Assembly (NCBI RefSeq): GCF_000016185.1
Contig: NC_011420.2
Location: 1,198,501-1,262,500 of the forward strand
DNA from: Rhodospirillum centenum SW
GTDB taxonomy: Bacteria; Pseudomonadota; Alphaproteobacteria; Azospirillales; Azospirillaceae
Direction: 5' to 3'
DNA: 64,000 nt
Positions 20,698 to 25,328 of this stretch are shown here, one piece after another. Both the position numbers and the translations under genes were made by a program. Under the pieces are notes generated by a model that was not told the DNA's origin, did not search any database, and was given only the letters and a program-made list of their open reading frames with translations. Within the stretch, counting starts at the first letter, position 1. Every line of letters starts with the position of its first letter.

Positions 20698-22668
20698 TCA
20701 GAAGGTGAAGCTGCCCTTCAGCCAGAAGCTCCGGCCGGGTTCGTTGACCCGGGTGGTCTGGACATAGCCGTCTCCGGCCAGGCTCGGCGTGCCGGCCCGG
20801 CTCAGGAATTCGGCGTAGGTCCGGTCGAACAGGTTGTCGATGCCGGCGGTCAGGGTCACCCCGTCGGTCGGCCGCCAGCCGGCGGACACGGAGACGACGG
20901 CAAAGCCCCCGGAGGGTCCGACATCAATCCCGGCGATGTTGCCCCAGCCGATGTCCACCCGGTCCTGCGATGCGACCAGCCGGGTCAGCAGACTGCCCAG
21001 GAAGGTCCCGTCGTCATAGTCCAGGGCCAGCGTCGCCTCCAGCGGCGGCATCTGGGCCAGGGCCGTGTCCTCCGTGCGGTTCTCCCCGCGCACATAGGCC
21101 AGCGTCGCTGCGGCGCGCCAGTCCCCGGTGATGGCGTAGCCCAGTTCCGCCTCCCCTCCCCAGGTCCGGGCGTCGATGTTCTTGCCGGTGCTGGCGGACA
21201 GCAGGATGTAGTCGTCGATCCGGTTGGCGAACAGCGAGACGGAACCCTCCCAGCGGCCGGCGCGGTAGAGGGCGCCGGTGTCGATCTGCGTCGTCTTCTC
21301 CGGGGCCAGCGAGAACAGCCGGGTCCGCTCCCAGTAGTCGGGCGCCCGCTCGGTATGGCCGAGACCGGCATAGAGCGTCCAGGCCGCCCCGGCCGCCTGC
21401 TCGACCCGGGCGAAGCCGGTGTGCAGCCAGTCGGTGTCCGCGGCCGCAGCGGCGCGTCCGCGCTGCTCCGCCCGGGTCCGGTTGAGGCGGTAGCCCGCCG
21501 CCAGCCGGCGGTCGGCGTCGATCTGGTAGCCGGCCTCCACGAAGCCGCCCCAGGTCTCGAAGACCAGATCGGCCAGCCGCGGCTTGTCGCGGTAATCGAC
21601 GCCCGCGGCGTACTCGGCGGCACTCAGGCTGCGGACGGTGTGCCGGTCATGGTTGCCGTCCACACCCACCGAGACGGTCAGCCCCTCCGCCGGTTTCAGG
21701 TCCACCGCGGCGCGCCCGCCATAGCCCTCCCGGTCCGGATTGCTGAGCGCGGCCATCATGCCGCCCGTCCAGCGGCGCAGGCTGAACCTGTCCATGACAT
21801 GGTCGATGTAGTCGTAGAAGGCGCTGGCCTCGACCCTGTCCACCAGGGGCGTCAGGCCGTCGCGGACGAAACGCAGGCGATGGGAGGTGCGGTCGAACTC
21901 GGCACCGTCCATCATCCGGTCGGCATAGGCGGCTTCGGCCCGGCTGATCTCGCTGGAGGCCTCCAGCAGGGTGTCGGCGTCCGGCGTCCAGCCGGCGACC
22001 AGCGTGCCGCTGTAGCGGTTGTAGCGGGAATGGACGTCGTTGCCCTCCCCGTCCTCGTAATCGTCGCTGTGGGCGCGGGTTCCGATGGCCCGGAGATAGC
22101 CCTCCGGCGCCCCGGCGGTGACGTCCAGCATCTGGTCGTTGCGCCCGAAGCTGCCCCCCAGCAGGCTGGCGTCGCCCCGCACGCCGGGTTCCGTGAAACG
22201 GTCCGTCGTGCGCTCGATCAGGACGGCGGCGCCGGACAGACCGCCGCCGTAGCGCACGGACTGCGGCCCCTTCAGCACCGTGATGCTGTCGAAGGACTCG
22301 GGAAAGACATAGGCGGTGGGCGGGTCCATCCGCATGTTGCAGCCGCCCAGCAGCGGCGCCCCGTCGATCAGCAGGCCCAGGCGCGAGCCGGACTGGCCGC
22401 GGAAGACCGGATCGCCCCCGGTGCCGCCCTTACGGATCATGGAGAAGCCGGGGATGGACTTCAGATAGCCGGCGCCGTCGTTCGGGGGAACCGGCAGGCG
22501 GGGCTGCTTCGGGTCGGTCTCCACCCGCAGCGGGCTGGAGGTTCCGGGCGCGGTGACGACCACCGGGCGCAGCACCAGGGTCGTCGCCTCTCCGGCCAGG
22601 GCGGGGGGAGCGGATGAGCACAGCAGAAGGCACGCGGCGACGCGCGCCGACAGGATATGGCGGGACAT
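20698..22668 (-). CDS. TonB-dependent copper receptor, OprC/NosA type
   Basis: From the ATG at 22668 this is a 656-residue outer-membrane receptor with a signal peptide (cut near LAG, ~26). It has a plug domain (~45-160, with PVFRGQSGSRLGLLIDG and the VLKGPQSVRYGGG motif) and a 22-strand barrel ending in the aromatic WLKGSFTF. Two motifs known to bind copper in Pseudomonas OprC are seen: CxxxM at C110-M114 (GGCNMRMD) and HxM at H290-M292 (DHVMD). This supports copper as the ligand. A DUF2946-like small protein is encoded just upstream on the same strand, an arrangement typical of such receptors. Longer starts exist (to 22992) but lack a signal peptide. Confidence 0.88.
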   Translation of the reverse strand: MSRHILSARVAACLLLCSSAPPALAGEATTLVLRPVVVTAPGTSSPLRVETDPKQPRLPVPPNDGAGYLKSIPGFSMIRKGGTGGDPVFRGQSGSRLGLLIDGAPLLGGCNMRMDPPTAYVFPESFDSITVLKGPQSVRYGGGLSGAAVLIERTTDRFTEPGVRGDASLLGGSFGRNDQMLDVTAGAPEGYLRAIGTRAHSDDYEDGEGNDVHSRYNRYSGTLVAGWTPDADTLLEASSEISRAEAAYADRMMDGAEFDRTSHRLRFVRDGLTPLVDRVEASAFYDYIDHVMDRFSLRRWTGGMMAALSNPDREGYGGRAAVDLKPAEGLTVSVGVDGNHDRHTVRSLSAAEYAAGVDYRDKPRLADLVFETWGGFVEAGYQIDADRRLAAGYRLNRTRAEQRGRAAAAADTDWLHTGFARVEQAAGAAWTLYAGLGHTERAPDYWERTRLFSLAPEKTTQIDTGALYRAGRWEGSVSLFANRIDDYILLSASTGKNIDARTWGGEAELGYAITGDWRAAATLAYVRGENRTEDTALAQMPPLEATLALDYDDGTFLGSLLTRLVASQDRVDIGWGNIAGIDVGPSGGFAVVSVSAGWRPTDGVTLTAGIDNLFDRTYAEFLSRAGTPSLAGDGYVQTTRVNEPGRSFWLKGSFTF

Positions 22669-22762
22669 GATCGGGTCCGTTGTACGGGGGCATGACCCCG
22701 GGACCGCGCCGGACCGTGAAGGCCGGGCGGGACTCGGGGAATGACAAGACCTCGGGGGTCGG

Positions 22763-23179
22763 TCAGCCCGCCGGCGGCGCCCGCGCCTGCCAGGCAAAGG
22801 CCAGCGTGCCACGGGGGGCAAGGCCGGGCCGTTCGTAGCCGCCCTGGATTTCCGGAAGCGACGGCAATCCGGGCGGCAGCGCCACGGGCGGAACGGACAG
22901 CCCGGCGGCCAGAAGGCCCAGCGGGCAGTGGCGCTTGACGGTGCCGCCGCCCTCCGATGCGTCGATGTCCAGCGGCAGGCCCGTGCGGGCATCGACCGCC
23001 ACGAGGGCCGGCCCGTCCACGGTGCAGATGGGCGTCAGGATGCCGACGCTCATGGCGGGGGCGTAGTACGCCCACACGACCATGTTCAGCAGCAGGGCCA
23101 GGGCGGCCAAGAAGGCGCTGCCCAGCGCCAGCCGGTGCAACGCTCCTGACGGTCCCTGTCTGCGTCCGTTTCCTCCCAT
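22763..23179 (-). CDS. Small DUF2946-like protein, probably copper-linked
   Basis: The protein has 138 residues from the ATG at 23179. One transmembrane segment (~20-40, LALGSAFLAALALLLNMVVW) is followed by a periplasmic part. That part has ICTVDG, an Ala/Asp loop and HCPLG, which resemble the Cys and HCPxC features of DUF2946. The second Cys of HCPxC is Gly here, so the domain is degenerate. The tail is Pro-rich. It lies 94 bp upstream of the copper receptor gene on the same strand, the usual place for DUF2946 genes. A role in copper binding or handling is inferred from this linkage only. Confidence 0.6.
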   Translation of the reverse strand: MGGNGRRQGPSGALHRLALGSAFLAALALLLNMVVWAYYAPAMSVGILTPICTVDGPALVAVDARTGLPLDIDASEGGGTVKRHCPLGLLAAGLSVPPVALPPGLPSLPEIQGGYERPGLAPRGTLAFAWQARAPPAG

Positions 23180-23706: not shown

Positions 23707-24111
23707 TCAGCGCAGGGCGTTGGCGATCAGGTAGGCGGCGTAGTCGGCCGTTTTCAGCTTGATGTCCGCCCGCTCGTCCTCCCCCGCCAGCGCCCGGGCG
23801 ACGACAATGTGGTTGGTGACGTGCGTGGGCGAGACCTTGAAGACGCCCTGCGTCCCCTTCAGCCGGGGATAGTAGGTCGGATCGACCATCTTGTCCTTGC
23901 GGGAGAGGCGTTCGATCGCCGCCTCCTCCGTCAGGTCGCTGGCATCCTGCTTCCTGACGATGGTCCAGTCCGTCTCTCCCGCCCAGCCGCGGGCGGCGAC
24001 CTCTGCCGGATCCTCGTCCGTGACGCCGACCTTGAAGACATGCTTGCTGAGGCCGACATCCGACGCCCAGTCGCTGAGTTTCGCGCTGCGGGCCACGTAG
24101 ATCACGCCCAT
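23707..24111 (-). CDS. Hypothetical protein with GIY-YIG/T5orf172-like N-terminus
   Basis: The protein has 134 residues. The first ~50 read MGVIYVARSAKLSDWA...HVFKVGVTDEDP..., resembling GIY-YIG-related T5orf172/Mug113 domains (strand-strand-KVGxT). The downstream arginine and the catalytic Glu cannot be placed with certainty. The rest is soluble, with RLSRKDKMVDPTYYPRLKG and a C-terminal Ala/Lys helix. A ribosome site GGGAAGGGAGCCGCC precedes the ATG. It is divergent from the HxlR gene. A nuclease function is only a possibility; I do not recognise a named family with confidence. Confidence 0.5.
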   Translation of the reverse strand: MGVIYVARSAKLSDWASDVGLSKHVFKVGVTDEDPAEVAARGWAGETDWTIVRKQDASDLTEEAAIERLSRKDKMVDPTYYPRLKGTQGVFKVSPTHVTNHIVVARALAGEDERADIKLKTADYAAYLIANALR

Positions 24112-24303: not shown

Positions 24304-24331
24304 CCGGTGCCGCCAAGGCTTCCGGCACCGG
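24304..24331. promoter_or_regulatory. Inverted repeat ahead of the tandem HxlR gene
   Basis: CCGGTGCCG (24304-24312) and CGGCACCGG (24323-24331) form a perfect 9-bp inverted repeat with a 10-base spacer. It ends 31 bases before the chosen start at 24363. It is a candidate operator for autoregulation or a leader hairpin. Confidence 0.4.
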
Positions 24332-24362: not shown

Positions 24363-25328
24363 ATGAACGACAAGAAGTATGTGCGGGCCTGCTCCATCAC
24401 CCGTGCGCTGGACGTCATCGGCGACCACGCGGCCCTGCTGATCCTTGAGTGCGCCTTTCTGGGTGTCCGCAAGTTCGACGCCTTCCAGCGCCGGACCGGC
24501 CTGCTCCGGCCGCTGCTCAGCAACCGTCTGAAGCAGCTCGTCGAAAGCGGGCTGCTGACGAAGGTGGCCTATTGCGAGCGGCCGCTGCGCTACGAATACC
24601 GGCTGACGGAGAAGGGCCGCGGGCTCTATCCCGCCGCGCTCATGATGGTGCGCTGGGAGCGTCGCTGGGCGCCGCTGCCGCGCCGGACCGAGCTGCGCCT
24701 GGTCCATGCCCTCTGTGGCTGCGAAGCCGATCCGGTTCCCGTCTGCACCGCCTGCGGCGGGGAGATCGACGCCCGCGAGGTCGAATGGCGGGAGGGGCCG
24801 GGCGTTGGGCTGGTGCTGCCGCACTACGACCGTCGACGCCGCCAGACCCGGATGCCGGAAGGCGACGCGGCCCTGCTACTGGACACCGTGCTGCGCGTCG
24901 TCGGCGACCGCTGGTCGTCGCTGATCCTGCGGTCGGGCTTCATGGGCCTGACGCGGTATGACGAGATCCGCGAAGAGACGCAGATCGCCACGAACATCCT
25001 GGCCGACCGGCTGCGTTGGCTCTGCGCCCATGGCTTCCTGGTGAAACGGACCTACCAGGAAAGCCCCAGCCGGCACGAATACCGGCTGACGGAGAAGGCG
25101 CGCGACCTCTATCCGGTTCTCACGATGCTGTTGCAGTGGGGCGATCGCTGGTACGCCTCCCCCGAGGGGCCGCCGATCCTGCTGACGCACCGCCGCTGCG
25201 GTGCGCCGCTGGAGCCGGCGGTCGTCTGCTCCGTCTGCAAGGAGCCGCTGCACATCGACCAGGTGCGGTTCGAGATGCTGAACGAGGCCGGTTCCCTCCC
25301 GGGGATGGCGCAGGCCGCCGCCTTCTGA
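24363..25328 (+). CDS. Tandem HxlR-type regulator with two HxxC-x9-CxxC motifs
   Basis: From the ATG at 24363 the protein has 321 residues made of two copies of one unit. Each unit is an HxlR winged helix followed by a short cysteine motif. HxlR 1 spans ~8-105 (ACSITRALDVIGDHAALLIL, RYEYRLTEKGRGLYP). HxlR 2 spans ~168-268 (LLDTVLRVVGDRWSSLILR, HEYRLTEKARDLYP). The motifs are H115-xx-C118-x9-C128-xx-C131 and H276-xx-C279-x9-C289-xx-C292, with identical spacing, so each likely binds zinc. HxlR proteins usually act as dimers; here both halves are on one chain. An upstream in-frame ATG (24270) would add 31 low-complexity residues. Target genes are unknown; it is divergent from the gene at 23707. 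Confidence 0.85.
   Translation: MNDKKYVRACSITRALDVIGDHAALLILECAFLGVRKFDAFQRRTGLLRPLLSNRLKQLVESGLLTKVAYCERPLRYEYRLTEKGRGLYPAALMMVRWERRWAPLPRRTELRLVHALCGCEADPVPVCTACGGEIDAREVEWREGPGVGLVLPHYDRRRRQTRMPEGDAALLLDTVLRVVGDRWSSLILRSGFMGLTRYDEIREETQIATNILADRLRWLCAHGFLVKRTYQESPSRHEYRLTEKARDLYPVLTMLLQWGDRWYASPEGPPILLTHRRCGAPLEPAVVCSVCKEPLHIDQVRFEMLNEAGSLPGMAQAAAF

Follow-up and report, generated by a model that had tools for sequence, protein, structure and literature searches.

Tandem HxlR regulators and a candidate directional site composed of two half-site types

Among bacterial regulators we describe a family in which an HxlR domain with a C-terminal zinc-type hairpin has been duplicated in tandem, giving a putative single-chain pseudo-dimer within the HxlR/DUF24 family. 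Regulators of the MarR/HxlR type are usually homodimers that bind palindromes. The explanation that best covers all our data, and which we consider quite probable, is that the tandem protein is a pseudo-dimer combining two classes of recognition helix, that it reads a hybrid and hence directional site, and that it controls a catabolic gene cluster. The duplication, the conservation of the ligand residues, the neighbouring genes, the motif with its asymmetry and the association between helix and arm all come out of sequence comparison. A single-chain family with a hybrid site would make the co-evolution of helix and half-site testable by changing one residue class or one helix. For many catabolic clusters of the carotenoid-oxygenase type, of which we found no description, it offers a predicted regulator together with its predicted site. 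If true, it shows how directional DNA reading arises from protein fusion.

A duplicated HxlR unit with zinc-type hairpins

The gene from which we started lies in the window, by which we mean the whole 64-kb stretch of DNA that was analysed. Its features are as follows.

24363..25328, + strand: tandem HxlR-zinc regulator gene, 321 aa, uninterrupted frame from ATG to TGA
24390..24677, + strand: N-terminal HxlR winged helix, residues 10-105 (Pfam HxlR stretch; helices of the model at 10-102, wing at 65-81)
24390..24392, + strand: codon of Cys10, which aligns with the N-terminal cysteine of HypR, PA1607 and PA1374 and is Cys in 40/61 tandem proteins
24507..24545, + strand: recognition helix of the N-half, residues 49-61, with R-P opposite T-N of the C-half
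24705..24755, + strand: first H-x2-C-x9-C-x2-C, residues 115-131 (ORF translation, alignment of 61)
24795..24872, + strand: linker, residues 145-170 (pLDDT below 50 over 152-170 in the model)
24897..25157, + strand: C-terminal HxlR winged helix, residues 179-265 (Pfam HxlR stretch)
24990..25028, + strand: recognition helix of the C-half, residues 210-222, T-N-I-L, with Asn211 kept in 60/61
25188..25238, + strand: second H-x2-C-x9-C-x2-C, residues 276-292 (ORF translation, alignment of 61)

PF01638 (HxlR) covers two stretches of the 321-aa protein (E 4.2e-38; 129.5 bits against a curated cut-off of 20.8), which bears out the sequence-only reading that two HxlR domains sit on one chain. The two motifs also have the identical spacing that it had claimed, at the very same positions (H115-x2-C118-x9-C128-x2-C131 and H276-x2-C279-x9-C289-x2-C292). 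The protein is neither an RrpA nor an RrpB by the NCBIfam models NF047367 and NF047364, for which it scores 52 and 67.4 bits against cut-offs of 185 and 175. Elsewhere in the window's genome (4.36 Mb, one contig) HxlR matches were found at one other place. In an AlphaFold model built with six sequences (pLDDT 79, pTM 0.76), each half contains helices, a wing, a long helix and a three-strand hairpin in the same order, and dimerisation helices together with a winged helix-turn-helix (wHTH) and its wing are predicted in each half. A single-chain pseudo-dimer is consistent with this model, in which the dimerisation helices of HxlR are kept in both halves.

The halves align over 132 residues, ungapped, with 36% identity and E 4e-30, so that the repetition is not due to chance. 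An internal duplication of an HxlR-plus-zinc-motif unit had been suggested earlier, and it is supported by two observations. H-x2-C-x8-10-C-x2-C is present in 27/53 single-domain relatives, which were gathered by similarity to the tandem protein and are hence no census, and the halves form groups in a tree of 125 rows, where 27/36 N-halves (SH-aLRT 97) and 28/36 C-halves (SH-aLRT 99) each stand together. Several subgroups of the N-half group match subgroups of the C-half group. Eight N-halves and seven C-halves fall with the C clade into a group of weak resolution, both halves of L047 are placed elsewhere in the tree, and a test with 31 rows did not reject one common origin for all N-halves (p-AU 0.425). 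The duplication behind the tandem HxlR proteins is old, and the unit of HxlR domain and zinc hairpin probably predates it.

Among 61 aligned tandem proteins the ligand residues are found in 58 (His), 57, 60 and 60 (Cys) for the first motif and in 60 (His), 57, 59 and 59 (Cys) for the second. Homologues in which these positions vary would have spoken against the zinc motif; instead, each is kept in 57-60 of the 61 proteins, close to the fold residues W184 (60/61), R216 (61/61) and W259 (61/61). A few proteins deviate: in L047 none of the eight ligand positions holds its usual residue (131 has His for Cys), in L048 four do not, the first motif of L040 is shifted, L071 and L105 carry Asp at 279, and L041 reads H-x2-D slightly out of register.

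The tandem proteins share with the single-domain HxlR/DUF24 regulators YodB, HypR, QsrR and HxlR the wHTH fold, the Pfam HxlR domain, dimer-type helices and, in 40/61, an N-half cysteine that aligns with the N-terminal one of HypR, but they differ in having two units per chain, zinc-type hairpins and an asymmetric family site. A homodimer on a palindrome is usual for the HxlR/DUF24 type; the tandem chain and the asymmetric motif of its relatives depart from it, which makes the label of a typical HxlR less fitting and leaves the domain membership as it is. YodB prefers the palindrome TACT-7-AGTA (PMC8063818). The closest solved relatives, PA1607 (2f2e) and PA1374 (4gcv), are both single-domain putative transcription factors; PA1607 is 33-39% identical over one half. 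Structural searches, which matched one domain at a time, returned PA1607 with Z 12.4 (137 residues, rmsd 2.8) and PA1374 with Z 11.1, next to other winged helices of up to 11.0, unrelated winged helices reaching Z 10-11. PA1607 has no zinc ligands, and PA1374 aligns only to residue 288, with no ligands before that. The engineered single chain HxlR-cpYFP-HxlR, named FAsor, still responds to formaldehyde (PMC7835342). Like the tandem protein it has two HxlR subunits in one chain; unlike it, FAsor is artificial, contains the same HxlR twice and has a fluorescent protein in between. In the titles and abstract openings found in open-licence PMC, no tandem or duplicated HxlR is described.

For the spread of the family, full-length matches at E 1e-50 or better to a profile of four tandem proteins were counted in draws of genomes that overlap and include the query genomes. 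Tandem HxlR proteins occur in 10/385 genomes drawn from the class and 13/398 drawn from the phylum. They are commonest in the order of G603 (42/296 genomes; 22/99 in another draw), which we take to be Sphingomonadales. In the order of G097 one of two genomes has the gene, and in the order of G751, outside the class, 1/197. Within the window's family it is rare (2/82 genomes, namely the window's own and G819), and this patchy presence suggests transfer or loss. A Sphingomonas MAG carries the tandem protein L034 and a gammaproteobacterial MAG carries L035. At L151 and at L158 two tandem HxlR genes lie about 8 kb or less apart.

A directional site and a catabolic neighbourhood

In the promoter segments of 54 tandem regions, 37.9 kb altogether, a k-mer search found ACTTGCAT enriched, with occurrences in 21/54 regions where 0.8 are expected. 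A motif fit by EM with one orientation per site gives the asymmetric site TnACTTGCATAAnnATACTnA, with 85 promoter sites in 42/54 regions compared with 0, 0, 0 and 2 in four shuffles. Over the whole regions the resulting PWM finds 142 sites, 21 of them inside listed gene bodies and 49 inside the tandem gene's open frame or at most 300 bp from it. Masking lost some promoter sites (as for L150, whose genome G603 has a strict match), and no promoter site was found in the tandem regions L143, L147, L152 and L176. Independently of the PWM, TnACT-N11-ACTnA occurs at 32 sites in 22/54 regions (shuffle mean 0.45, maximum 2); of its palindromic versions, TnACT-N11-AGTnA occurs once and TnAGT-N11-ACTnA twice. 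Fewer than 1% of the 114 tandem sites with at least 18 bits reach 13 bits on the opposite strand. The asymmetric PWM beats a palindromic one in 42/42 tandem regions, the same regions to which the asymmetric model had been fitted. Exact four- and five-base palindromes give a weak signal in the tandem regions. An asymmetric operator had been guessed at before: promoter sequences argue for it in the family, but no such site was found for the window copy. Other spacings are enriched as well in the tandem regions, namely TnACT-N6-ACTnA in the promoter segments (9 sites in 6/54 regions, shuffle maximum 3), the direct arrangement with N15 (6 sites) and TnACT-N12-AGTnA (3 sites).

The strict pattern, which recovers only 54 of the 142 PWM sites, was searched in the 296 genomes of the tandem-rich order and gave 99 matches. 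The 42 tandem genomes contain 49 of them at most 10 kb from the gene (32 genomes) and 18 elsewhere; ten have no strict site near the gene. The 254 genomes without the tandem gene contain 32 matches, spread over 23 genomes (Fisher p 1e-20 without correction for ancestry). The strict pattern read backward, taken as a control, matches 28 times in 14 tandem genomes and 124 times in 66 others, its positions not being given and nearness hence not comparable. Judged by this control, the scattered strict matches are background, and outside the tandem genomes they are at or below it. All ten tandem genomes outside the motif training, which are close relatives of training genomes, have a near site. Beyond the order, counting by eye gave a site within 10 kb in 10/17 other tandem genomes, regions of which had served to train the motif. 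In the window's family, 34 genomes without the tandem gene have 3 strict matches, and the control has 11.

Around the tandem genes a recurring cluster is seen at L121-L160, L166-L177, L034 and L035, consisting of an RPE65-type oxygenase, a CoA ligase, an NMO/FabK-like flavoprotein, a PRK06289 thiolase, a TonB receptor and the tandem HxlR. Counted by blastp at 60 bits or more, the 54 regions contain the RPE65-type oxygenase in 38 cases, the PRK06289-type thiolase in 31, the CoA ligase in 29 (those matching at 24-30% identity could belong to different CoA ligases), the NMO-like protein in 27 and the TonB receptor in 24. The 40 genomes searched have 0-4 RPE65 genes each, and the linkage between RPE65 and the tandem gene is therefore strong. 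In open-licence PMC we found no description of HxlR together with a carotenoid oxygenase, or of a carotenoid oxygenase together with nitronate monooxygenase and Novosphingobium.

Helix classes, arms and competing explanations

The two halves differ in their recognition helices, a feature that the sequence-only reading had left unmentioned, as it had Cys10. In the set used for helix classes, Asn is present in 35/36 C-halves, as Asn211 is in 60/61 tandem proteins, and in only 2/36 N-halves, of which 34/36 have R or K one residue earlier. The two N-halves with Asn are those of L087 and L080, whose source genomes G097 and G674 have no strict site. In the window protein the N-half reads R-P and the C-half T-N, Pro50 being the counterpart of Asn211. 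By sequence these are two classes that also occur in single-domain HxlR proteins, an Asn class (A-x-N-I/M-L, C-half) and an R/K-x class without Asn (N-half).

For the half-sites we searched 300 bp upstream of 53 single-domain genes, 11 of them PA1374-like, 27 zinc-type and 15 other. ACT[AT]-9-[AT]AGT was found at 6/11 PA1374-like genes (shuffle mean 0.05) and 1/27 zinc-type genes, AGT[AT]-9-[AT]ACT at 6/27 zinc-type genes (shuffle mean 0.15) and 1/11 PA1374-like genes, and the hybrid arrangement at 0/38 of these two groups. The other 15 have ACT-AGT twice, AGT-ACT once and the hybrid once. In the tandem regions the same search gives the hybrid in 21/54 (2.1 by shuffles) and the palindromes in 2 and 4 (1.45 and 1.0). 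An AGTT-N9-AACT palindrome stands upstream of the zinc-type genes L049, L056, L060, L061, L064 and L083 (6/27, about 0.1 by shuffles). With the palindromic PWM, 9/11 PA1374-like genes reach 12 bits, beating the asymmetric PWM in all nine, and 0/20 shuffles reach 12 bits; L022 reaches 12 bits only with the asymmetric PWM and L014 with neither. The asymmetric PWM reaches 12 bits at 16/53 singles (0.1 by shuffles), and nine singles of 12-18 bits score better with it than with the palindromic PWM, although some of these, for example L049 and L061, are AGT-ACT palindromes. Arm and helix go together: the nine singles having only the ACT-N11-AGT palindrome all have Asn in the recognition helix (9/9), and seven of the eight having only AGT-N11-ACT are without it, the exception being L019. 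Across the 53 singles, whose rows are related and not independent, the association of helix class with arm gives a Fisher p of 0.0004; 36/53 have neither palindrome.

In this scheme TnACT arms make up the palindromes of Asn-class singles and TnAGT arms those of the other class, and in either case the cores stand 11 bp apart. The tandem site TnACT-N11-ACTnA contains one arm of each palindrome in inverted order and is in this way directional. One helix class per half, and one arm per class at the same spacing, fit an inverted pseudo-two-fold arrangement with two half-specificities, as far as sequences can tell. We infer that the tandem protein binds DNA and that each half probably reads its own arm; in the relatives it most likely binds the hybrid site in its own promoter and in the promoters of the catabolic cluster, which comprises the RPE65-type oxygenase, the CoA ligase, the NMO-like flavoprotein, thiolases and the TonB receptor. 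Moreover, we lean towards a natural instance of broken operator symmetry with a readable code, Asn or its absence corresponding to TnACT or TnAGT, in which the fusion brought both helix classes together on a directional site. The notion that the hybrid site is one palindrome with a changed arm was dropped, because both arms occur in palindromes of single-domain genes.

The same sites might be bound head-to-tail as a direct repeat, both halves reading an ACT core 14 bp apart on the same strand with no pseudo-two-fold. In the PWM both cores indeed read ACT on the same strand (C at position 8, 0.95; C at position 22, 0.96), and TnACT-N11-ACTnA dominates. However, the arms differ outside ACT, the singles show each arm in an inverted repeat with the same N11, the helix classes of the halves match the two palindromes, and the HxlR dimer helices are retained in the model; we regard this arrangement as unlikely. 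It also seems improbable to us that another regulator common to catabolic clusters binds the motif and that the tandem HxlR is a mere neighbour. Many sites do lie in promoters of catabolic genes common to the tandem regions, but the 49 of 142 PWM sites in or next to the tandem gene speak against such a regulator, as does the recurrence of each arm upstream of single HxlR genes. In addition, L144, L146, L149, L153, L157, L174 and L177, where no RPE65 or NMO was found, nevertheless have sites of 15.6-29.6 bits, and the site is absent at RPE65 loci apart from a tandem gene (two, plus the window genome's own; L162, L163, L164).

With regard to the signal, the pseudo-dimer on the hybrid site would most likely respond to a compound of the pathway, perhaps an electrophile or aldehyde at Cys10. 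In the alignment this N-half residue falls on HypR's N-terminal cysteine, and PA1607 and PA1374 have Cys there too; at the corresponding place in the C-half, position 171, the window protein has Leu, and Cys is found in 3/61. HxlR of the B. subtilis type senses formaldehyde through Cys11 and Lys13 as a crosslinking pair (PMC7835342). Such a pair was not found, since residue 12 is Ile in the window protein and I, V, A, L or M in the 61 tandem proteins. With no Lys two residues after C10, the window protein does not match the B. subtilis-type formaldehyde sensor in this pair. If instead the zinc hairpins were the sensor, thiol oxidation would free zinc and alter DNA binding. The conservation of six cysteines and two histidines across both halves would suit this idea, which we find rather doubtful: that conservation is no higher than the one of fold residues, Asp stands at 279 in two or three proteins, PA1607 when aligned over the C-half motif is without any ligand, and HxlR and YodB sense through an N-terminal cysteine. 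A structural zinc accounts at least as well as a signalling role for ligands that are conserved like fold residues, and the putative hairpins would most likely stabilise each half.

The window copy

Upstream of the window gene a further feature had been proposed as its operator.

24304..24331, no strand: palindrome CCGGTGCCG-N10-CGGCACCGG, 31 bp upstream of the ATG; present once in the window against an expectation of 0.01

Arms of this length arise in 9/300 base shuffles of the 300 bp upstream. The proposal gained no support: the repeat is symmetric and GC-rich, and when the longest repeat from each of 48 stretches preceding the genes of relatives was compared, none resembled it. On this comparison it was rejected as an operator of the family, whose site it does not resemble. 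The window itself contains no PWM site of 9 bits and no match to the family site within 2 mismatches, and its genome (G000, 4.36 Mb) has neither a strict match nor a match to the backward control.

The usual neighbours, RPE65-type oxygenase, CoA ligase, thiolase and NMO-like protein, were not found in the 64-kb window when ten families were searched. The window copy thus resembles an orphan that stands apart from the cluster and has no recognisable site with it. It may be a relic, or an orphan that has been retargeted, and perhaps it regulates itself through the 24304-24331 palindrome; we see this as a real possibility, if somewhat short of an even chance. The lack of catabolic neighbours other than TonB receptors, the missing family site, the rarity of the palindrome and the distance of the genome's RPE65 homologue (23% identity) would agree with it. 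On the other hand, the palindrome is GC-rich, unlike the family site and without a similar one beside the relatives, and the window protein retains both helix classes and the strongly conserved residues of the family save Y199 and A246, which are minority variants elsewhere; hence there is no sign of decay.

A 134-aa ORF at 23707-24111 on the - strand is divergent from the tandem gene and matches no Pfam family at E 0.001. A TonB receptor is the only usual neighbour family matched in the window (27%), and Pfam identifies another TonB receptor at 20698-22992. Near the window gene lie an MCP, an EAL/GGDEF protein, a KaiC-like protein and a Transgly_assoc protein.
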